Shown here: positions 11,693 through 63,874 of the stretch, piece by piece | Position numbering within the stretch: position 1 is the first letter of the stretch | Layout of the letters: the number at the start of each line of letters is the position of its first letter | From: Pseudomonas sp. Q11 | GTDB lineage: Bacteria; Pseudomonadota; Gammaproteobacteria; Pseudomonadales; Pseudomonadaceae | Reading direction: 5' to 3' | Length of the DNA stretch: 64,000 bases | Assembly (NCBI RefSeq): GCF_024494355.1 | Contig: NZ_JAKNQY010000025.1 | Coordinates: forward strand, 1-64,000 | Program-made: the position numbers and the translations under genes | Notes under the pieces: generated by a model | Databases searched by the model: none | Seen by the model: the letters and a program-made list of their open reading frames with translations, nothing else | What the model was told of the DNA's origin: nothing

Positions 11693-12835
11693 TCACCAAC
11701 CCCGCCCCGAATTCACCCAGAAATTCACTGACAACGAAGTGGACACCGACTCCACCTGATGGAACCAGCCTTCAGGCAGGAACAGCAGATCCCCGGCCTC
11801 CAGCGTCACCCGCAGGAAGGTCACGTCACGGGCGCGGGGGAAGCGCTGGTAGTCCGGCGCGTCCGGGTTGAAATCGCAACCGTCCAGGCCGCCTTGGGGT
11901 GCCGTGGACCAGGTGCCGAGGGCTTCGCGGTGATGGGGCGCGGCGAGAGTGAAGGTTTTCTGGCCCCAGACCTGGGCGAACAGGTTGTCGGTGTCGTCGC
12001 GGTGCAGCGGGGTGAGGGTGCCCTTTGGGCCGATCCAGATGCGCGGTGGAATGAACAGCGACGGGTCGAAATAGGACGGGTAGTTGATCAGCTCCATCAA
12101 CTGCGCCGGCAGAATGTTGTTGCCCATGTAGGCCGGCGGTTCGCCATCGGCGCCCTTGACCGCCGGGTTGTCCAGCGAAGCAATGAAATCGGCCATGGAC
12201 GTGGAGCGGAAGTCCCGCTCGGTGGAGAAGGTTTTCTTCACGTAGTCGCCGTGGCGGGTGATGCCTTGCAGCTCGGCAAAATGCACCAGGGATTCTTCGC
12301 GACTGAGCTTGAACAACGGCCAGTCCTGCAAGGCATTGCTGATGACCACCGGAATGCCATGGGGCAGGTAGCGCGCTTGAAACGCTTGCACCGTCAGCTC
12401 GCTACGCGGCCGACGCTCCACGCTGCGTTGGGGCGGCAGGCTGGCGGTGAGTTTTTCGCTGAAGCGCGGCGGGGTGGGATAGCGCTTGTTCATGTCGACC
12501 TTTTCCACCGCGCCAGCACCGTGGCGGGCATGCTCGATGATCTGCGGCAACAACGTCGCCAGCCCCATGTTGCCGCCGATCTTCAGGCGTCCGCTGGCGA
12601 ACAGCTCCTCGACATTGGCCAGGCCGGCCATGATCCCGAGAAAGTCCTTCTCCGCCACTTCGATGGTCACGTCGGGGCTGCTGTGGCGACCGGCCTGGGT
12701 GTGGCTGCTGGTCTTGACCTCGGACCAGTACGCCTGCTGGGGGCCGAACACGAATTGGAAAACACCTTCGATACCAACGGCGCCAGCGTTGGCGAACAGT
12801 TTGCCCAGGATGGTTTGCAGGTCCACGGCGGTCAC
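11693..12835 (-). CDS. JmjC (cupin 8)-SCP2 two-domain protein with PvdS box
   Basis: Product of 380 residues. Residues 1-110 resemble an SCP2 sterol-carrier domain (VFGPQQAYWSEV, DVTIEVAEKDFLGIMAGL, GRLKIGGNMGLA). Residues from about 150 are a JmjC/cupin-8 domain of the FIH type. The Fe(II) ligands are visible as His278-x-Asp280 (LHRDDTDN) and His359 (WFHQVES), so it is probably an active 2-oxoglutarate-dependent oxygenase. No signal peptide is seen. A perfect TAAAT-N16-CGT box is 27 bp upstream of its ATG, which places it in the predicted iron-starvation regulon. Its substrate is unknown; a role in siderophore tailoring or in iron-sparing lipid metabolism is inference. Confidence 0.78.
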   Translation of the reverse strand: MTAVDLQTILGKLFANAGAVGIEGVFQFVFGPQQAYWSEVKTSSHTQAGRHSSPDVTIEVAEKDFLGIMAGLANVEELFASGRLKIGGNMGLATLLPQIIEHARHGAGAVEKVDMNKRYPTPPRFSEKLTASLPPQRSVERRPRSELTVQAFQARYLPHGIPVVISNALQDWPLFKLSREESLVHFAELQGITRHGDYVKKTFSTERDFRSTSMADFIASLDNPAVKGADGEPPAYMGNNILPAQLMELINYPSYFDPSLFIPPRIWIGPKGTLTPLHRDDTDNLFAQVWGQKTFTLAAPHHREALGTWSTAPQGGLDGCDFNPDAPDYQRFPRARDVTFLRVTLEAGDLLFLPEGWFHQVESVSTSLSVNFWVNSGRGW

Positions 12836-12862
12836 TCTTGTCGGTTTTGGTCTGAGCAGGTA

Positions 12863-12886
12863 ACGAGGGCCGGGAGCGAAAATTTA
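12863..12886 (-). promoter_or_regulatory. Iron-starvation (PvdS) box for the JmjC/SCP2 gene
   Basis: On the minus strand TAAAT, 16 bases, CGT, matching the PvdS promoter consensus exactly. It lies between tam and the JmjC/SCP2 gene, 27 bp before the latter's ATG. Confidence 0.7.
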
Positions 12887-13660: not shown

Positions 13661-13746
13661 GGCGTTCTCCTTTGCGATGGGCCGAGCTGAGACGTCGCCA
13701 GTATAGGGGGCGTGAGAGCCCATGGGGCAGGTACGGCGACGCTGAC

Positions 13747-13770
13747 TAATTCAGGCTGTCGCCACTTCGT
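13747..13770 (+). promoter_or_regulatory. Variant IS box upstream of the thioesterase
   Basis: TAATT, 16 bases, CGT: one mismatch to the PvdS consensus TAAAT-N16-CGT. It ends 35 bp before the GTG start of the type II thioesterase. Confidence 0.55.
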
Positions 13771-13805: not shown

Positions 13806-14540
13806 GTGACCCAACTGACCTTGCTATGCCTGCCGTATTCCGGCGCCAGCGCCATGGTTTACAGCCGCTGGCGGCGCAAGGTGCCGCAATGGCTGCAGGT
13901 GCAGCCGGTTGAGCTGCCGGGACGCGGGGCGCGTTTCGGCGAGCCGCTGCACACCGACATGGGCCCGTTGGCGATGCAACTGGCCCGGGAACTGCGCCCC
14001 ACGCTCCAGGCCCCTTATGCGCTGTTCGGCCACAGCCTGGGCGCATTGCTGGCCTGCGAAATCGCCCATGCCTTGCGCGAGCTGGGTTGCCCGGAACCGG
14101 TCGCGCTGTTTGCCTCGGGCACCGCGGCGCCGACGATGCGCGCCGATTACGACCGCGATTTTGCCACGCCGAAAACCGACACCCAATTGATCGAGCAACT
14201 GCGCACCCTCAATGGCACCAGCGAAGAAGTACTGGCCAATGAAGAACTGATGGCCCTGACCTTGCCTGTGCTGCGGGCGGATTTTCTGCTGTGCGGACGC
14301 TTCCAGCCGCGAACCCGATCGCCGCTCGAATGCCCGGTGCACGTGCTCGGCGGCACCACTGACAAGGCCAGTACCGAGCAACTGATCGGCTGGCGTCGCG
14401 AGACATCGGGCAGCTTTTCGGTGGACATGCTGGCAGGCGGGCACTTTTTTATCCATGAGCACGAGGCCAGGGTACTGCGCCTGATCAAGGATCAGTTGAG
14501 CGTGCATCATCGACGGCATGGGCTGGCGGTCAGCGCCTGA
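13806..14540 (+). CDS. pvdG: Type II thioesterase, PvdG-like
   Basis: Product of 244 residues, a discrete alpha/beta-hydrolase thioesterase of the kind that clears misprimed carrier domains of peptide synthetases. It starts LLCLPYSGASAMVYSRWR, has the nucleophile motif GHSLG with Ser77 and a late GGHFF with His213. The start is GTG at 13806, about 10 nt after GGAG. In P. aeruginosa the pvd thioesterase PvdG lies near pvdL; here the gene precedes the first side-chain synthetase, and a variant IS box precedes it. Orthology to pvdG in the strict sense is not certain. Confidence 0.8.
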   Translation: MTQLTLLCLPYSGASAMVYSRWRRKVPQWLQVQPVELPGRGARFGEPLHTDMGPLAMQLARELRPTLQAPYALFGHSLGALLACEIAHALRELGCPEPVALFASGTAAPTMRADYDRDFATPKTDTQLIEQLRTLNGTSEEVLANEELMALTLPVLRADFLLCGRFQPRTRSPLECPVHVLGGTTDKASTEQLIGWRRETSGSFSVDMLAGGHFFIHEHEARVLRLIKDQLSVHHRRHGLAVSA

Positions 14541-14776: not shown

Positions 14777-14799
14777 TAATTTTTCCGGTCTGCATTCGT
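14777..14799 (+). promoter_or_regulatory. Variant IS box upstream of pvdI
   Basis: CTAATT followed after 15 bases by CGT, close to the PvdS consensus but with one base change and a spacer one base short. It ends 56 bp before the ATG at 14856, similar to the 46-bp distance at pvdP. An upstream ATG at 14814 would lie almost on the expected transcription start. Confidence 0.5.
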
Positions 14800-14855
14800 T
14801 TTATAGGGACGACATGCCTTTGTGCCTTGTGCCCACTGATTCCGGATACCCAGAA

Positions 14856-27568
<12,713 letters not shown>

Positions 27569-27569
<1 letters not shown>

Positions 27570-42583: not shown

Positions 42584-42633
42584 ACCTGTAGCCGGTCGGG
42601 CCTGGTGCCTGGCCGGCTTGGAGAGTGTGTCTA

Positions 42634-43584
42634 ATGTCGTTGAACCCTGATATCGCCGCGTTCCTGGAATTGGTCGGCAATGGCCGCGCCAGCGGCAAAC
42701 GCGTGCCCATGCACCGGATGAGCCCGGCCGAGGCTCGTGAACAGTTTGATCAGTCCTCGCTGTTGATGGATGCCGGCGGCGAGGCGCTGGAAGTGGTCCA
42801 AGCGTTGCGAATTCCGACCCGCGACGGCGCACATCTGTCGGCTCGCCTGTACAGCAACGCTTTGCTGGATGCAGGCTTGGCCCGGCCGGCGCTGTTGTAT
42901 TTTCATGGTGGCGGCTATGTGGTCGGCAGCCTCGACTCCCATGATTCGCTGTGCCGTAATCTGGCAGCCATGGCCGATTGTGTGGTGGTGTCTGTGGCCT
43001 ATCGACTGGCGCCGGAGTTTCGTTTCCCCACCGCCGCCGACGATGCCCTGAACGCCTGGGCATGGTTGGTGGCCGAGTCGGGGCGGTTGGGCATTGATGC
43101 GCGGCGTCTGGCCGTGGCTGGCGACAGCGTTGGAGGCAGCCTCGCTACGGTGCTGGCGGCGCAACCGCTGGACACGCCACCGTTGTTGCAAGTGCTGATT
43201 TACCCGGTCACCGACGCCAGTCGCAGCACGGCGTCCATCGCGCGGTATGGCGAAGGGCATCTGCTGGAAAAGGATTCGTTGAGTTGGTTTTATGAGCATT
43301 ACCAGCGCGCTGCGGATGACCGCCATGACCCGCGCTTCTCGCCGCTGTTGGCCGACATTCCAGCTCACATGCCGCCGACGCTGCTGGTCCTCGCCGAGTG
43401 CGATCCGTTGCACGACGAAGGCATGGCCTACGCCGAGCGCTTGCAGCAGGCCGGGGTGGCGGTAGAGCTCAAGGTATACGCAGGTATGACCCATGACTTC
43501 ATCCGCATGGGCGCCATTGTCGACGATGCTGAAGAGGCTCAGCAGCATATTGCCCAGCGGTTGGTGGCGGTGTTTGCCGGGTGA
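42634..43584 (+). CDS. HSL-family alpha/beta hydrolase in the NRPS operon
   Basis: Product of 316 residues of the hormone-sensitive-lipase family (alpha/beta hydrolase fold 3). The oxyanion motif HGGGY begins at 91, the nucleophile is Ser165 in GDSVGGS, and the rest of the triad is Asp257 (ECDPLHDEG) and His287 (MTHDF). No signal peptide, so it acts in the cytoplasm. Start 42634 follows GGAGAG; a GTG at 42625 is possible. It begins 50 bp after the terminal synthetase without an intervening promoter, so it is probably co-transcribed. An esterase or deacylase role on a pyoverdine intermediate is inference; it has no counterpart at this place in P. aeruginosa. Confidence 0.8.
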   Translation: MSLNPDIAAFLELVGNGRASGKRVPMHRMSPAEAREQFDQSSLLMDAGGEALEVVQALRIPTRDGAHLSARLYSNALLDAGLARPALLYFHGGGYVVGSLDSHDSLCRNLAAMADCVVVSVAYRLAPEFRFPTAADDALNAWAWLVAESGRLGIDARRLAVAGDSVGGSLATVLAAQPLDTPPLLQVLIYPVTDASRSTASIARYGEGHLLEKDSLSWFYEHYQRAADDRHDPRFSPLLADIPAHMPPTLLVLAECDPLHDEGMAYAERLQQAGVAVELKVYAGMTHDFIRMGAIVDDAEEAQQHIAQRLVAVFAG

Positions 43585-44094: not shown

Positions 44095-46554
44095 CTACCA
44101 GTTATAGGTCAGGTCCGTGGTCAGGGTGCGGCCCTGGCCGTAGTAGCAGTCCCAGTCGCTACGGCAGCTGGCGACGTACTTCTTGTCTTCGAGGTTTTCC
44201 ATGTTCATCCGCACACTCACGCCCTTGATGCGCAGGGGAGATTTCTCGAAGTCATAGGACATCATGGCGTCGTACACCGTGTAGGACGGGATCTGGAACG
44301 CACCTTCATAATCGGTGCCGTAGCTCTGGCGCACATAACGGGCGCCGATGCCTGCGCCGAAACCGGCCAGGGGGCTGGCGCCGGTGAAGGTGTAGTCGAT
44401 CCAGGCCGAGGCGGTCAGTGGCGGGGCGCTGGCCGGGTGACGACCTTGGCGACCATCGTTGTCCTTGGTGTACTCGATGTCGTTGCGCGACACCGAACCG
44501 ATCATCCGGATGTTTTCATTGAGGTTGATCTTGCCTTCCAGCTCGATGCCCTGGGAGCGCATTTCGCCGGACTGCTCACTGACCCCGTATTCGGCTCCCA
44601 AAACGCTAGTGACGACGTTTTCCTGCACGATGTCATAGACCGACAGTTGGATAAAACCGTCGATGTCCTTGGGTTCGTACTTGATACCCGCTTCGTATTG
44701 CTTGCCGGTGGTCGGTTCAAACGCGGGCCCGGAGATATTCGTGTTACTGACGGGCATGAAGGATTCGGAGTAGCTCACATAAGGCGTGAGACCGTTGTCG
44801 AACAGGTAGCCGAAACCGGCCCGGCCGCTGAATTTCTCATCTCGGGTTTTGCTGCTGGTGCCCGCCAGGGGCTGTTTGTTATCGGTGTCGGCGAAGTCGT
44901 AGCGCCCGCCGACGGTAAAGAACCATTTGTCCCATTTGAGTTGGTCCTGAACATAGAGGCCGGTCTGGCGGATGGTGTTATCCCAACGATGGGGCGAGGT
45001 GAAGTTGATCTGCCCACCATACACCGGGTTGTACATGTCGATGGCCGCGGCGCTGCGGTCATACAGTCCGAGGAACTTGGATTCGAAATGGTAGTGGTCC
45101 ACGCCCAGCAGCACGGTGTGGTCCAGCTCACCGGTCTTGAATTTGGCCTGGGCGGTGGAATCGATGTTGTAGACCTTGTTGGTTTGCGACCAGTCCACAC
45201 CGTAGCGACGCATGTAGCGCTGGTCATTGACGCCTGTGGTGGGGTTGGCGATGAAACCATAACCGTGCAGCGTATCCACATACTGGTCATCAACCTGGGC
45301 ATAGCGGGCGGTCTGCTTGAGGGTCCAGACGTCGTTGAGTTCGTGGGACGCCTCATAGCCGACGACAAATTGCTCGCGGTTATACTTGTTCACATCCGGC
45401 TCGCCAAAGAACGTCGAGCGGCTGTACTTGCCGTTCGGGTTTGGCAACACAGTGCCGGAGGCGGGCAGGCCCTGGGCGGACGGGGTGTCGTGGTCTTTCT
45501 GGTACTGGGCGAAGATTGTAATGCTGGTAGCGTCGCTCGGGTTCCAGGTCAGGCTGGGTGCCAAAAGCATACGGTTGCTTTCGACGTAGTCGATTTCCGA
45601 ACCGGAGTCTTCCACCATGCCGGTCAGGCGGTAGAGAAACTCGCCCTGATCATCCAGTGGGCCGCCCAGGTCAAAGCCGAGCTTCTTGCGGTCGTTATCG
45701 CCGGCGCCCAAGGTCACTTCATGCAACGGCATGGCGGTGGGGCGCTTGCTGACCATATTGACGATACCGCCCGGCTGGTTCTGGCCGTAAAGCACCGAGG
45801 CCGGGCCCTTGAGCACTTCGATGCGCTCCAGGGTGTACGGGTCGATTTGCAGCGCGCCGCCGGTGCTGCCACCGCCGTAGGGCAGGTGCAGGCCGTCGAG
45901 GTACAGCGGTGTGGGGATGAAGCCACGGGAGGTCGGTTCGTCGAAGATCGTCACGCGGTCGGAGAAGCCACCACCGGTCATGCCGGCGGTGTAACGCAGG
46001 GCTTCGGTCACGCTTTGCGAGCCGCGCAGCTTGACTTCGTCCTGGGTGATGACGTTTACGGTTTGCGGTATTTCATTGAGCGGTGTATCGGTTTTGCTGC
46101 CCGTACCGGTTCTTTTCGCGACGATCCCATCGACCGCCCCCCACGCCGACTCCTGGGTCCCTGAAATATTGATTGGCGCCAGATCCAGGCCGGCACCGTT
46201 GCTGCGGCTCTGCAACGTCACGCTGTTGCCTTGGACGCTATAGGTGATGTGGGTGCCTTGAAGCAACTGGGCCATGGCCGCCGCCGGTTCCAGGTCGCCG
46301 CTCACAGCCGTGCTGCGCACGCCGCTGACATCGTTCGGGCTGTAAAGCACTTGCAGGTTGGTCTGGCGACCGAATTCCTGCAAGGCGCTCCCCAGCGCCT
46401 GAGCAGGAATGTTGATCGCCACGACTTGTGCGTGGGCATGGCCGATCATCGGCAAGGTGAGCGCCATCGCGCAGAGGGTCGAAAGGTTTGGTCGAAATGA
46501 GCGGCGGATTAGCAGAGCCTTGGCGAGAGGGTTAAGTCCGTGCGGTGCGGGCAT
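44095..46554 (-). CDS. TonB-dependent receptor, FpvA-like N terminus with FhuA-like barrel
   Basis: Product of 819 residues. A signal peptide ends at about residue 42 (GHAHA). Residues 44-120 form an STN signalling domain (INIPAQALGSALQEFGRQ). The plug has LNEIPQTVNVITQDEV and VLKGPASVLYGQNQPGGIVN. The barrel ends CRSDWDCYYGQGRTLTTDL...YNW, a paired-cysteine finish typical of FhuA/FoxA ferrichrome and ferrioxamine receptors, not of FpvA. The N terminus MPAPHGLNPLAKALLIRR is strikingly like P. aeruginosa FpvA. Start 46554 is chosen for this signal peptide. It sits downstream of pvdE on the same strand with a hairpin and a Fur-box-like site between them. An FpvB-like receptor for pyoverdine or hydroxamates is likely. 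Confidence 0.85.
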   Translation of the reverse strand: MPAPHGLNPLAKALLIRRSFRPNLSTLCAMALTLPMIGHAHAQVVAINIPAQALGSALQEFGRQTNLQVLYSPNDVSGVRSTAVSGDLEPAAAMAQLLQGTHITYSVQGNSVTLQSRSNGAGLDLAPINISGTQESAWGAVDGIVAKRTGTGSKTDTPLNEIPQTVNVITQDEVKLRGSQSVTEALRYTAGMTGGGFSDRVTIFDEPTSRGFIPTPLYLDGLHLPYGGGSTGGALQIDPYTLERIEVLKGPASVLYGQNQPGGIVNMVSKRPTAMPLHEVTLGAGDNDRKKLGFDLGGPLDDQGEFLYRLTGMVEDSGSEIDYVESNRMLLAPSLTWNPSDATSITIFAQYQKDHDTPSAQGLPASGTVLPNPNGKYSRSTFFGEPDVNKYNREQFVVGYEASHELNDVWTLKQTARYAQVDDQYVDTLHGYGFIANPTTGVNDQRYMRRYGVDWSQTNKVYNIDSTAQAKFKTGELDHTVLLGVDHYHFESKFLGLYDRSAAAIDMYNPVYGGQINFTSPHRWDNTIRQTGLYVQDQLKWDKWFFTVGGRYDFADTDNKQPLAGTSSKTRDEKFSGRAGFGYLFDNGLTPYVSYSESFMPVSNTNISGPAFEPTTGKQYEAGIKYEPKDIDGFIQLSVYDIVQENVVTSVLGAEYGVSEQSGEMRSQGIELEGKINLNENIRMIGSVSRNDIEYTKDNDGRQGRHPASAPPLTASAWIDYTFTGASPLAGFGAGIGARYVRQSYGTDYEGAFQIPSYTVYDAMMSYDFEKSPLRIKGVSVRMNMENLEDKKYVASCRSDWDCYYGQGRTLTTDLTYNW

Positions 46555-46579
46555 TGTTCTTCTACTCTTTAAGTGGTGA

Positions 46580-46594
46580 TGAGAACTATTTCCA
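46580..46594 (-). promoter_or_regulatory. Fur-box-like site upstream of the FhuA-like receptor
   Basis: TGAGAACTATTTCCA matches 10 of 14 defined positions of the 7-1-7 Fur consensus TGATAATNATTATCA. It lies 26 bp upstream of the receptor start, consistent with direct Fur repression. No IS box was found here. Confidence 0.5.
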
Positions 46595-46610
46595 TTAGCT
46601 GTAAGTAAGA

Positions 46611-46644
46611 CGTTGAGCTTTTCCAAAACCAGAAAAGCTCAACG
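46611..46644. terminator. 13-bp perfect hairpin between pvdE and the receptor
   Basis: CGTTGAGCTTTTC and GAAAAGCTCAACG form a perfect 13-bp stem with an 8-base loop. It is 24 bp past the pvdE stop and would separate pvdE from the receptor. A T run follows only in the plus direction, so its use as a minus-strand terminator is uncertain. Confidence 0.55.
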
Positions 46645-48422: not shown

Positions 48423-48446
48423 ACGATTGGATGGGAGGGGAATTTA
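48423..48446 (-). promoter_or_regulatory. PvdS (IS) box of pvdE
   Basis: On the minus strand TAAAT, 16 bases beginning TCCCC, CGT: an exact match to the iron-starvation consensus, 104 bp before the pvdE ATG. Confidence 0.85.
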
Positions 48447-48585: not shown

Positions 48586-48601
48586 GAATCCTCTTCACGA
48601 A

Positions 48602-48616
48602 TGATAAGTAAAATCA
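48602..48616 (+). promoter_or_regulatory. Fur-box-like site upstream of fpvA
   Basis: TGATAAGTAAAATCA matches 12 of 14 defined positions of the 7-1-7 Fur consensus. It is 254 bp before the fpvA ATG. No TAAAT-N16-CGT box is visible in this region, so the direct sigma factor for fpvA is unclear from the sequence. Confidence 0.55.
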
Positions 48617-48870
48617 TTCCGGTTTTGGCAGGTGCTGCGTCTTACTTAGGTATGTGGACAAATCGGGTCGGGCAGGACGCTCAGGCACCGGGTTTGTTCA
48701 GCAAAGATTTCGCCGTCGTCCAGCCGGATGACCGTGCCCGGGGAGGGGCCGGTCGGCCCCGCACTGACACATTACCCAGGGGCAATCGACCGTGCGGGTT
48801 CTCTCGTGCTGGCGAGCGGCGGGCCCTTCGGCCCCATGGACTTTTACTTCTACCAATAATAGAGAGCACG

Positions 48871-51339
48871 ATGTCATCCATTCATGAGTTGAAACCTCTG
48901 TTCAAGGCACTCGTCATGTCCCGCGGCCTGCGTTCGCGCCGGGTGTTGACCGGTCTGGGGCTGGTCTGCCTGCTGCCACTCAGCGCTCAGGTGATGGCTG
49001 AAGACGTCAGCATCGACATTCCTGCGCAATCGCTGCCCCAGGCACTGCAAGCGTTCGGTCAGCAGACCAACCAACAAGTGATCTACAACGCTGGCGATAT
49101 GGCCGGGCTGAAAAGCAACCGTGTCAGCGGCAAGATGAGCCCGCAGGCGGCCCTCACCGAATTGCTCAAGGGCACCGGCGTGCGCTACAGCATTGAGGGC
49201 AATACCCTGATGCTGCTGCGCGGTTCTGCCACTGGGTCCCTTGAGCTGGGCGCGACCACCGTCAAAGCACAGGAGCTGGCGGCGACGACCGAAGGCAGCA
49301 AGTCATACACCAGTAACGCCGTGACCATCGGCAAGGGCACCCATACCATCAAGGAAATTCCTCAGTCGGTCACCGTAATGACACGCAAGCAGATGGATGA
49401 CCAGAACCTGGTCAACCTCAAGGACGCCGTCAACCAGACTACCGGCATCGTCGGCCTGCAGGGCGTTGGCCAAGGCATGATCCTGTCGTCACGCGGGTTC
49501 CAGATCGACGACTGGCAGTACGACGGTGTGCCGATCCCGCGTAACACCTATTCGCTGGGCAACTGGGCGACTCAGGACCTGATCTTCTTCGATCGCCTGG
49601 AAATCATGCGCGGCGCCTCCGGCCTGCTGCAAGGCACGGGCAGCCCCGGTGGTGCCGTCAACTTAGTGCGCAAGCGTGGCCAGAACGCACCGACCGTGAC
49701 CCTGACCGGCAAGGCCGGCTCCTGGGATCACTACGGTCTGCAACTGGACGCCGGCGGCCCGCTGAACCAGGCCGGCAACATCCGCGGTCGCATCGTCGTC
49801 GACGAAGACCAGAGCAATTCATTCGTCGACCATGCGTGGAGCAAGACCCATTCGCTATACGGCGCGCTGGACGTCGACCTGAGCGAAGACACCACCCTGG
49901 GTTTCGCGGTCAGCCAATCCAACGGCGAATCGCGGGGCAACATTCGCGGCCTGCCACGCTACGCCGATGGCAGGATGCCGGACGTGTCGCGCTCGACCTA
50001 CACGGGGGCGCGCTGGAACCGCTCCGAAATCGACGTCACCACCCTCTACGCCGATCTGGAGCACCGCTTCAATGAGGACTGGGCGTTCAAGGTCGGCGCG
50101 GTGCACATGAGCGAAGACAACCAGGCGAAAAACCAGCGCGTCCAAAGGGGTGGTGGTCTCCTGCCTGATGGCAGCGGCGTGCAATATGCCGACTTCCTGA
50201 CCGATTTCCAGTCCACGAAGGTCGGTCTCGACATGAACCTGACCGGCAAGTTCGAAGCCTTGTCGATGGAGCAGGAAGTCATGCTGGGCGGCAACTATTC
50301 CCAGCTGGAAACCGATGACCGCTACGCCCGTACATTCAACAACACCAGCGACTCCATCTTCGACATTGACAATGACCGTCCGGACATCAGCTACGACAGT
50401 TTGATCGCCGCGGGCGGCCAAGGCACCCTCAGCAAATACGATATCCGCCAGAAGGGCGTGTACGGTACCTGGCGCGTCAAGCCGGTGGACGATCTGACGC
50501 TGGTGCTGGGTTCCCGGGTCAGCTGGTATGACTACAGCTACAAGTCGAAAACCGAAAACTCAGCCGGTATCACAGGCAACGCGCCAAGCACCGGAACTGA
50601 AACCGGAGTGGTCACGCCCTACGCGGGCATCATCTATGACCTGAGCCGCGAATGGGCCGTGTATGCCAGTTATACCGACGTGTTCCAGCCGCAGACCAAT
50701 CGCGATGCCAACGGTTCGGTGCTCAAGCCGATAGTCGGCACCAACTACGAAGTCGGCCTCAAAGGCGAATTGATGGACGGTCGGGTCAATACCTCCCTGG
50801 CAATCTTCCGCTACGACCATGAGAACCGTGCCATCAACGACGGTGGTTCGGGGTGTGGCGGCTCGGGTTGCTCGGTAGCCTCGGGCAAAGTGCGCAGCCA
50901 GGGTATCGACGCCGAAATCAGTGGTGAAGTGATAGACAACCTGCAGCTGTTCGCGGGTTACACCTACAACACCACCAAGTACCTGGAGGACCCGGACAAT
51001 GAAGGGAGTATTTTCAGCACCTGGACGCCGAAACACATGCTGCGCGTGTGGGGCAACTACCAGTTCACCGGCGACTGGAGCCGTGTCAGCACCGGCTTGG
51101 GCTTCACCACCCAGAGCCACACGATGGTTTACGACTACGATCGTGAAGTCCCGGGTTACACCGTATGGAACGCCCGCGTCGGCTACCAACTGACGCCGGA
51201 AATCGCCTTGGCGGTCAACGCCAACAACCTGTTCGACAAGACGTACATTACGTCCGCCTACAACCAGATCAATGGCAACAACAACTTCGGTGATCCACGC
51301 AACCTGATGTTCAGCGTGACGTACAAACCGCAGTTCTGA
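48871..51339 (+). CDS. fpvA: Ferripyoverdine receptor FpvA
   Basis: Product of 822 residues. A signal peptide ends near residue 45 (SAQVMA), followed by an STN signalling domain (VSIDIPAQSLPQALQAFGQQ), a plug (IKEIPQSVTVMTRKQMDD; IMRGASGLLQGTGSPGGAVN) and a 22-strand barrel ending DPRNLMFSVTYKPQF, the ending typical of FpvA. It imports ferric pyoverdine with TonB and signals through its N-terminal domain to the sigma factors FpvI and PvdS. Start 48871 is chosen from the signal peptide; the frame is open upstream to 48601, but that part is GC-rich leader. It is divergent from pvdE. Confidence 0.9.
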   Translation: MSSIHELKPLFKALVMSRGLRSRRVLTGLGLVCLLPLSAQVMAEDVSIDIPAQSLPQALQAFGQQTNQQVIYNAGDMAGLKSNRVSGKMSPQAALTELLKGTGVRYSIEGNTLMLLRGSATGSLELGATTVKAQELAATTEGSKSYTSNAVTIGKGTHTIKEIPQSVTVMTRKQMDDQNLVNLKDAVNQTTGIVGLQGVGQGMILSSRGFQIDDWQYDGVPIPRNTYSLGNWATQDLIFFDRLEIMRGASGLLQGTGSPGGAVNLVRKRGQNAPTVTLTGKAGSWDHYGLQLDAGGPLNQAGNIRGRIVVDEDQSNSFVDHAWSKTHSLYGALDVDLSEDTTLGFAVSQSNGESRGNIRGLPRYADGRMPDVSRSTYTGARWNRSEIDVTTLYADLEHRFNEDWAFKVGAVHMSEDNQAKNQRVQRGGGLLPDGSGVQYADFLTDFQSTKVGLDMNLTGKFEALSMEQEVMLGGNYSQLETDDRYARTFNNTSDSIFDIDNDRPDISYDSLIAAGGQGTLSKYDIRQKGVYGTWRVKPVDDLTLVLGSRVSWYDYSYKSKTENSAGITGNAPSTGTETGVVTPYAGIIYDLSREWAVYASYTDVFQPQTNRDANGSVLKPIVGTNYEVGLKGELMDGRVNTSLAIFRYDHENRAINDGGSGCGGSGCSVASGKVRSQGIDAEISGEVIDNLQLFAGYTYNTTKYLEDPDNEGSIFSTWTPKHMLRVWGNYQFTGDWSRVSTGLGFTTQSHTMVYDYDREVPGYTVWNARVGYQLTPEIALAVNANNLFDKTYITSAYNQINGNNNFGDPRNLMFSVTYKPQF

Positions 51340-52688: not shown

Positions 52689-53969
52689 TCAGAGTGTCTT
52701 GCCCAGCAAGCCCATGAAGCGATCGATCTCGGCTTCGGTGTTGAGCAGGCTCGGCGCGGTTCGAATGACAGGCCCGGCATCGCGATGCACGGCGTCGGCG
52801 ATCACCCGGTTTTGCATCAGGTAGGCGGCGATCTCATCGCTCTTGCGACCCTTGACCCGGAAGAAGGTGAAACCGGCCGACACGTCCGGACTAATGGGCG
52901 TGACCAGCTCGATTTGCGGCAGCGCCAGCAGCTGTTTTTTCAGGTAGGTATTGAGCGCGTGAATGCGCGCCTGCACCTCGGCCTTACCCAGTTGCAAGTG
53001 CAGCTTGAACGCTTCGTCTGCCGCCCAGCGATGTTCGAAGGCGTGGTAGCCGCCGGGCGTCATGGTGGTGGAAAACGCCGTGGCTTCGGAGAAGGTCGGG
53101 ATGATCGGCGTGACGTACTTGAGCTCTTCACTGCGGCTGCACACCAGGCCGGTGCCCCGCGGGCCGAACATCCATTTGTGGGTGCCGGCGATGAAAAAGT
53201 CGCAATTCATCGCCGGGAAGCTCAGGTCTTCAACACCGAAGCCGTGCACGCCGTCTACCACGTAGACGATGCGCTGCTCATCGCTGCGGCCCTGGTTGTG
53301 CTTGTCCACCAGCGCGCCGATCTTGTCGATCGGCAGCTTCACGCCGCTGCCCGAATGCACCCAGGTCATGCCCAGTACGCGGGTTTGCGGGCGGATGTTG
53401 CGGTCAATGGCGCTCAGGATTTCCTCGTGGCTGGCGTTGTGGGCGTTCTCGAACAGTTTGATCTTGCGCACCCGGGTGCCGTCCCGTTGGCTGCGCAAAT
53501 CAAGGATGGTATGGGTGGCGTAATGTTCGTGGGCGGTGGTGAGAATTTCCTGGTCGGCCCGCACATGGACGCCGCCGTAGATCATCGCCAGGCCTTCGGT
53601 GGTGCTGCCGGTGAGGGCGATCTGCGCAGGGTTTGCTTGCAGGTAGCGGCCGGCCCAGAGGCGCACGTTTTCCTCGCGCTTTTCAGTGACGCCCAGGTCC
53701 CAGTCCATCAGCAGGCCGGGGTTTTTATCCAGGGCGGCCCGGTGTTTTTCAATGGCGTCATGCACCGGGCGAGGGTGGGTGGTAATCAGGAAATTGGAGA
53801 AGTGCAGGTAGTCCGGATCCTGATTGAACAGCGAGCGCAACTGCGCCCATTTGTCCCGGGGCAATGGCGGCAGGGGATCGGCAATGGCCGGGGCGGGAAG
53901 ATGGGTGGCCAGCGGCAGGCCGGCGGCGAGGATCCCGGCTTGCTTGAGAAAGGTACGGCGCTCATTCAT
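52689..53969 (-). CDS. pvdN: PvdN, periplasmic PLP-dependent enzyme
   Basis: Product of 426 residues. The N terminus ERRTFLKQAGILAAGLPLA is a twin-arginine export signal. The body is an aminotransferase class V fold, and the PLP lysine is in AGTHKWMFGPRG near residue 264. PvdN converts the chromophore glutamate side chain to succinamide in the periplasm. It overlaps pvdM by 4 nt and so is translationally coupled to it; pvdO follows. Confidence 0.92.
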   Translation of the reverse strand: MNERRTFLKQAGILAAGLPLATHLPAPAIADPLPPLPRDKWAQLRSLFNQDPDYLHFSNFLITTHPRPVHDAIEKHRAALDKNPGLLMDWDLGVTEKREENVRLWAGRYLQANPAQIALTGSTTEGLAMIYGGVHVRADQEILTTAHEHYATHTILDLRSQRDGTRVRKIKLFENAHNASHEEILSAIDRNIRPQTRVLGMTWVHSGSGVKLPIDKIGALVDKHNQGRSDEQRIVYVVDGVHGFGVEDLSFPAMNCDFFIAGTHKWMFGPRGTGLVCSRSEELKYVTPIIPTFSEATAFSTTMTPGGYHAFEHRWAADEAFKLHLQLGKAEVQARIHALNTYLKKQLLALPQIELVTPISPDVSAGFTFFRVKGRKSDEIAAYLMQNRVIADAVHRDAGPVIRTAPSLLNTEAEIDRFMGLLGKTL

Positions 53970-55674: not shown

Positions 55675-55698
55675 TAAATTTGTCAGCCCCCCCATCGT
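55675..55698 (+). promoter_or_regulatory. PvdS (IS) box of pvdP
   Basis: TAAAT, 16 bases, CGT: exact consensus, 46 bp before the pvdP ATG. Confidence 0.88.
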
Positions 55699-62986: not shown

Positions 62987-63010
62987 ACGAGCGTGCCGAG
63001 CGGGAATTTA
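62987..63010 (-). promoter_or_regulatory. PvdS (IS) box of pvdRT-opmQ
   Basis: On the minus strand TAAAT, 16 bases beginning TCCCG, CGT: exact consensus, 67 bp before the pvdR ATG. Confidence 0.88.
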
Positions 63011-63850: not shown

Positions 63851-63874
63851 TAAATTTTTTTTCACTGTCCTCGT
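63851..63874 (+). promoter_or_regulatory. PvdS (IS) box of pvdA
   Basis: TAAAT, 16 bases (seven T first), CGT: exact consensus, 95 bp before the pvdA ATG and 25 bp after the fpvI stop. Confidence 0.85.

Follow-up and report, generated by a model that had tools for sequence, protein, structure and literature searches.

Pyoverdines are the main siderophores of the fluorescent pseudomonads. The closest described relatives of the oxygenase analysed here, JMJD5/KDM8, JMJD7 and FIH, are amino-acid C3 hydroxylases. The oxygenase shares with them the Cupin_8/JmjC fold and the HxD...H iron triad, but it is bacterial, lies in a siderophore cluster and carries an N-terminal SCP2 domain. SCP2 domains are found in carriers such as sterol carrier protein 2 and UbiT, but here the domain is fused to a JmjC domain.

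Among siderophore enzymes, TBH_Asp, IBH_Asp and IBH_His are TauD-type Fe(II)/2-oxoglutarate hydroxylases of synthetase products (PMC12971057). The oxygenase would be an enzyme of the same kind, but it has no TauD match, and TauD domains occur separately from it in 8 of 19 related pvd stretches. It would act on the same Glu-derived pyoverdine side chain as PvdN and PtaA (PMC6206403), but those enzymes are periplasmic and PvdN is of the PLP type, whereas the oxygenase is predicted by eye to be cytoplasmic. The acyl chain of the pyoverdine precursor sits on the residue that becomes this side chain (PMC6206403, PMC11366639, PMC12195549). According to a 2018 review, the malamide side chain is made by an unknown hydroxylase in some species, not including PAO1 or A506; it also states that a hydroxy-Glu intermediate has never been found, and it favours direct conversion of succinamide (PMC6206403). 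The same review treats side-chain tailoring as periplasmic, in contrast to the predicted location of the oxygenase.

The oxygenase gene and its predicted protein

The window is the whole stretch of DNA that was analysed, 64,000 nucleotides from Pseudomonas sp. Q11 (contig NZ_JAKNQY010000025.1, positions 1 to 64,000). The oxygenase gene, its domains and the promoter element before it are as follows:

11693–12835, minus strand: SCP2-JmjC (Cupin_8) oxygenase gene; 380-residue open reading frame (ORF) with GTG start at 12835; fold match to JMJD5
12536–12769, minus strand: SCP2 (lipid-carrier) domain, residues 23–100; Pfam SCP2, E = 1.6e-9, 38.4 bits, cut-off 21.3
11717–12385, minus strand: Cupin_8/JmjC domain with H278/D280/H359, residues 151–373; Pfam Cupin_8, E = 3.2e-38
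12863–12886, minus strand: PvdS-type iron-starvation box TAAATT-N14-TCGT, sequence TAAATTTTCGCTCCCGGCCCTCGT, 27 bp before the GTG

A previous reading of the sequence only had named an SCP2 domain and a JmjC domain with an intact iron triad. Both domains matched Pfam above the cut-offs, with Cupin_8 at 132.5 bits against a cut-off of 27.4 and JmjC_2 also above its cut-off (E = 2.9e-6), and the triad residues H278, D280 and H359 were invariant in all 34 aligned sequences, including the window's own. The same reading had placed an ATG at the start of the gene, which was wrong: the ORF listing gives the GTG at 12835, and comparison of orthologues suggests that the conserved start is possibly the GTG at 12826, three codons inward. 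No NCBIfam model reached its cut-off in the protein, TauD (PF02668) was not matched in a Pfam scan to E 0.1, and the UbiT model scored far under its cut-off (13.9 of 46.9 bits). By eye, the oxygenase lacks a signal peptide, while PvdN has a Tat-like N-terminus.

The best solved relatives by sequence were JMJD5/KDM8 chains (E = 1.9e-19). An AlphaFold model built on the 34 sequences was of moderate confidence, with a mean pLDDT of 74.8 and three segments below 50; in a fold search with this model, JMJD5 was the best hit (E = 1.1e-17, 23–25% identity) and the fold was of the JMJD5/JMJD7/FIH kind. TYW5 is also among the closest solved relatives. The HxD...H triad together with the profile match places the protein among the JmjC/Cupin_8 Fe(II)/2-oxoglutarate oxygenases, with hydroxylase activity as the predicted function. 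Binding of an acyl chain by the SCP2 domain is a plausible prediction.

The PvdS-type box and the pyoverdine cluster

The box was located where the sequence-only reading had described it, as TAAAT-N16-CGT on the minus strand 27 bp upstream of the start. Six exact copies of the TAAAT-N16-CGT motif are present in the window, whereas shuffled sequence gave an expectation of 0.39. Genome-wide, however, it gave 44 matches compared to 57 for a reversed control, so the bare motif alone proves nothing. The strict form, TAAATT-N14-TCGT, accounts for 6 of the 44 genome matches, and all six of these lie in the pyoverdine cluster. The other five precede pvdE, pvdM, pvdP, pvdR and a PvdA-like ORF, in agreement with the earlier statement that five known pvd promoters in the window have the same form. 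It is reasonable to assume that the box serves the oxygenase gene alone, although an SDR gene that read-through might reach lies 107 bp downstream of the oxygenase gene on the same strand. The tam gene lies between pvdG and the oxygenase in just 9 of 80 orthologous loci (best 80 of 91 named loci).

The pvd gene names used for the window (pvdA, E, G, M, N, O, P and R) were assigned from domain content and place and are to be taken as presumptive. The features of the cluster are:

13806–14540, plus strand: pvdG thioesterase (Pfam Thioesterase; synteny)
14814–42583, plus strand: two pyoverdine peptide synthetases (core motifs; codes Ser, OHOrn-like, Ala, Gly, Thr, Ser, OHOrn-like)
48423–48446, minus strand: same-form box before pvdE, an ABC transporter; the box is inside a 5' extension of the listed ORF
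52689–53969, minus strand: pvdN, coding for a PLP enzyme of the periplasm that modifies the Glu side chain (Pfam Aminotran_5; Tat-like N-terminus by eye; function from PMC6206403)
55383–55406, minus strand: same-form box before pvdM (ORF with Pfam Peptidase_M19)
55675–55698, plus strand: same-form box before pvdP (ORF without Pfam match, named by size and place)
62987–63010, minus strand: same-form box before pvdR, HlyD type; the box is inside a 5' extension of the listed ORF
63851–63874, plus strand: same-form box before the PvdA-like ORF, which runs from about 63970 to beyond the window end

As listed, the pvdE and pvdR ORFs start before their boxes, and their true starts must therefore be more internal. 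By eye, there seem to be variant boxes with TAATT or CTAAT in place of TAAAT before pvdG (13744–13770) and the first synthetase (14778–14803), both on the plus strand.

The adenylation codes of the synthetases were assigned by eye from known signatures rather than computed, and no Asp or His code was found among them in this by-eye reading. The predicted peptide resembles the pyoverdine of P. aeruginosa 1-60, Ser-FoOHOrn-Orn-Gly-aThr-Ser-cOHOrn (PMC9925543). In the third module of the first synthetase (14814–27569), an in-frame stretch of about 345 bp at 26232–26577 (plus strand) contains two arrays of 15-bp repeats (26256–26364 and 26429–26577) around an inverted-repeat-like centre; it sits between adenylation core motifs A4 and A5, adds about 115 residues and resembles a REP-like element that has expanded without loss of the frame. 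After the last synthetase there is an Abhydrolase_3 esterase-like gene (42625–43584, plus strand), with relatives next to the oxygenase in P. putida NBRC 14164, the type strain (G217), and next to synthetases in G091, G074, G203 and other genomes. Two genes for TonB-dependent receptors (44095–46626, minus strand, and 48601–51339, plus strand) flank pvdE, and this pair may possibly include a second pyoverdine receptor.

Conservation, neighbourhood and distribution

For the orthologues, we searched the best 80 of 91 named loci for the box in a region reaching from 150 bp ahead of the match start to 30 bp beyond it. The sequence-only reading had proposed an undescribed member of the iron-starvation regulon, and had named a lack of any conserved box before orthologues as one of two observations that would refute this. 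The box search did not bear out such a lack: the exact TAAAT-N16-CGT box was present upstream in 72 of these 80 loci. Another four (L059, L062, L092 and L108) have TAATT-N16-CGT, bringing the number to 76 of the 80 if one mismatch is allowed, and in the remaining four (L085, L102, L103 and L109) the box was absent. There were 68 distinct box sequences among the best 80 of 91 loci, in which TAAAT and CGT are fixed and the N16 is variable, and the strict TAAATT-N14-TCGT form was found in 55 of the 72 loci with an exact box. The TAATT form in the four loci (4/80, best 80 of 91) is also seen among the variant candidate boxes of pvdG and the first synthetase.

We considered the possibility that the box arose by chance or has no part in driving the oxygenase gene, as the genome count (44 compared to 57 for the reversed control) and the 4 boxless loci among the best 80 of 91 would allow. 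However, the control positions in the same loci gave only 33 exact matches in 992,044, or about 0.005 per upstream window, whereas 72 of the 80 orthologues (best 80 of 91) keep the box at a similar place while its spacer drifts. This possibility is thus highly improbable. Because the box is conserved before the orthologues and pvd genes are found near the gene in several different layouts (below), the oxygenase gene is almost certainly a member of the pyoverdine (PvdS-box) regulon, as had been proposed, with promoter activity as a prediction from sequence. It is an undescribed and conserved regulon member that would place a known enzyme superfamily in a new setting; we recognised no description of the gene in the open-licence literature on PvdS, pyoverdine or malamide.

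In 51 of the best 80 of 91 loci, the oxygenase gene and either pvdG or a synthetase gene form a directly divergent pair: in 40 of the 80, pvdG is divergent within 200 bp, and in 11, the N-terminus of a synthetase is divergent within 300 bp. Four more of the best 80 of 91 have pvdG about 1.95 kb downstream and the start of a synthetase 1.2–1.3 kb upstream of the oxygenase. In NBRC 14164, the oxygenase is at the end of the pvd cluster, next to the esterase-like gene, with pvdN, pvdM and pvdP following in this order, and genome G163 is alike, while in G149 the oxygenase lies between pvdM and pvdP. Absence from the best 80 of 91 named loci does not mean absence of the gene: NBRC 14164 is not among them, yet its genome, G217, carries the oxygenase gene along with three of the search peptides.

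In the genus sample, 65 of 298 genomes had an oxygenase match with E < 1e-100. The gene in one of the 65, G034, is broken by a TGA, and G143 and G153 have fragments; overall, the gene looks disrupted in G034, G105, G143 and G153, with an in-frame TGA or the gene in pieces. The gene thus seems to be lost occasionally, as expected of a dispensable tailoring gene. In the family sample, 40 of 398 genomes matched at E up to 1e-25, confined to 3 of 19 genera, and in two of the 40 (G174 and G640) the match covers the JmjC part only. Among the 321 genomes of the class sample, there was no full-length relative besides that of the window's own genome.

A protein or RNA oxygenase similar to JMJD5, TYW5 or the ribosomal oxygenases, serving iron-starvation physiology and merely co-regulated with pyoverdine, would account for the protein and tRNA oxygenases being the nearest solved structures. 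It would also suit the loci in which pvd company was not detected: in 16 of the best 80 of 91 loci, covered for at most 3 kb on each side, a search for six neighbour proteins gave no match near the oxygenase, and no neighbour protein was detected in G218 either. However, the patchy presence (65 of 298 genomes), the confinement in these samples to 3 of 19 genera, the lack of another full-length relative in the 321 genomes of the class and the synteny with pvd genes suit a tailoring enzyme and not a housekeeping one, making such a role improbable.

Genomes that carry the oxygenase usually have pvdN as well: pvdN was found in 61 of the 65 gene-carrying genomes compared to 129 of the 233 gene-less ones (Fisher p = 7e-10, ignoring kinship). 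The four gene carriers that lack pvdN at E 1e-60 are G026, G149, G155 and G181. In G149, a predicted membrane protein that is acyltransferase-like by eye (L164:1074-2393, minus strand) stands between pvdO and pvdM, where pvdN would be expected. In the six genomes that have a P. putida-like pvdN and no oxygenase, pvdN is just 62–70% identical to that of NBRC 14164, so these six do not provide a close empty-site comparison. We also considered an azotobactin-forming role for the oxygenase and dropped it; the family scan placed the gene in 3 of 19 genera. Azotobactin ions accompany malamide in P. fulva (PMC12195549) and GB-1 (PMC4019867).

Candidate substrates of the oxygenase

Tailoring of an acylated pyoverdine intermediate, which the sequence-only reading had suggested, is plausible, and we narrow it here to the N-acylated Glu rather than a residue of the peptide. 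An SCP2 domain as acyl holder beside a JMJD5-like hydroxylase domain fits the acyl-ferribactin precursor, and since no signal peptide is seen by eye, the oxygenase should meet this precursor while it is still acylated. Our preferred but tentative proposal is that the gene encodes a JmjC oxygenase of siderophore assembly in which the SCP2 domain would hold the acyl chain of acyl-ferribactin while the Glu beneath it is hydroxylated, thereby supplying the missing malamide/malic step in the cytoplasm, before PvdN. As to the exact substrate, we lean towards the N-acylated Glu of ferribactin as the source of the malamide side chain, with a confidence that stays short of even.

Starting from the observed domains, iron triad, box and synteny, we infer the substrate, the hydroxyl position and the order of steps as follows. 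Under iron starvation, PvdS would switch on a cytoplasmic Fe(II)/2-oxoglutarate oxygenase of pyoverdine biosynthesis, a step that is strongly supported by sequence. The SCP2 domain would then grip the C14 acyl chain on the N-terminal Glu of acyl-ferribactin, either PvdL-bound or released, and the JMJD5-like JmjC domain would hydroxylate the acylated Glu, with C3 as the most likely position. Once the precursor has been exported and deacylated, PvdN would convert the hydroxy-Glu to the malamide (hydroxysuccinamide) side chain. The malic acid form would arise from hydrolysis of malamide.

Of the strains with published masses, P. fulva NBRC 16637 (L099), P. putida NBRC 14671 (L095) and NBRC 14164 carry the gene, with the box in each, and P. 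brassicacearum CCUG 51508 (L032) likewise has both gene and box. We take CCUG 51508 to be the same strain as DSM 13227, and NBRC 100650 to be KT2440. Ion pairs 15.99 to 16.01 apart are listed for all three of the gene-carrying NBRC strains, compared to 11 of the 13 strains of Table 4 overall (PMC12195549), and the agreement is weak because so many of the strains in the table show such a pair. In the same table, no +16 pair is given for NBRC 100650 and P. parafulva NBRC 16636; the main KT2440 ion of 1,073.42 (PMC7768705) matches that of NBRC 100650. The side chain of P. fulva NBRC 16639 is of the malic acid type by MS/MS (B1 at m/z 373.11; PMC12195549), and malamide or malate forms are made by GB-1, MnB1 and CFML 90-51 (PMC4019867). 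Succinic and ketoglutaric forms are described for SBW25 (PMC2235872) and likewise for WCS374 (PMC3496975). For P. brassicacearum DSM 13227, the reported pyoverdine has m/z 1134.41 (PMC12971057). By our arithmetic on the A214 peptide, this value agrees with the mass of a succinamide form (1134.43), whereas a malamide form would be expected at 1150.43. A malamide hydroxylase thus fits P. brassicacearum poorly, since the succinamide mass was reported despite the presence of gene and box. In another set of 17 samples, the side chains are described as succinic and succinamide forms, which were the focus of that study, and one Glu form (PMC9925543; methods in PMC8888394). The P. brassicacearum mass, these side chains and the four gene carriers without pvdN limit our confidence in the exact substrate.

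The P. brassicacearum mass and the four genomes without pvdN would both be explained if the enzyme, likewise PvdS-controlled and part of pyoverdine synthesis, acted elsewhere on the acylated precursor, on either the fatty acyl chain or the Tyr/Dab of the future chromophore, so that the final siderophore would show no trace or a different one. The regulon and synteny evidence is the same for such an enzyme, and a lipid substrate would be in keeping with an oxygenase that carries an SCP2 domain. However, the relatives JMJD5, JMJD7, FIH and TYW5 act on residues of amino acids or on the side chain of a tRNA base and are not known to hydroxylate fatty acids, and the chromophore is also made by producers not known to carry the gene, such as PAO1. 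We therefore consider another target of this type rather unlikely, if worth keeping in mind.

A different kind of substrate would be an Asp or His of the peptide, with the oxygenase acting as a JmjC β-hydroxylase in place of a TauD-type siderophore enzyme. Among the JmjC relatives, C3 hydroxylation is known for Asn, Asp, His and Arg, and OHAsp-containing pyoverdines occur in some gene-carrying lineages (P. capeferrum WCS358, with the gene in L094, and A214). However, the synthetases of the window have no Asp or His code by eye, and the GB-1 pvd operon has a SyrP homologue. Where TauD domains occur in the pvd stretches of other genomes (8 of the 19), they are synthetase-fused in seven and separate in G149; TauD was not found in the window or in the other 11 of the 19 stretches, some of which do not extend over the synthetases. 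Furthermore, P. fulva NBRC 16637 carries the gene, whereas the Asp of P. fulva pyoverdine is unhydroxylated (PMC12195549). The predicted peptide leaves no residue in need of a hydroxylase, OHAsp is explained by the separate TauD domains, and a role on peptide Asp or His is thus very unlikely.

If hydroxylation of the acylated Glu is correct, the malamide/malic side-chain enzyme, stated as missing in the 2018 review (PMC6206403), would gain a candidate, and JmjC enzymes would join the hydroxylases of siderophore residues that are described as TauD-type (PMC12971057). A possible use of the long acyl chain of ferribactin would then be to give a tailoring enzyme that acts in trans something to grip, and tailoring of the side chain would begin in the cytoplasm, ahead of PvdN. 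A JmjC oxygenase would escape rules that detect such hydroxylases by their TauD domains. Elsewhere in the window's own genome (G000, C14, approximately 461579–494355), there are three TauD matches, one of them in a synthetase-sized frame of 3453 residues, which suggest a second, hydroxy-amino-acid siderophore, presumably corrugatin-like.
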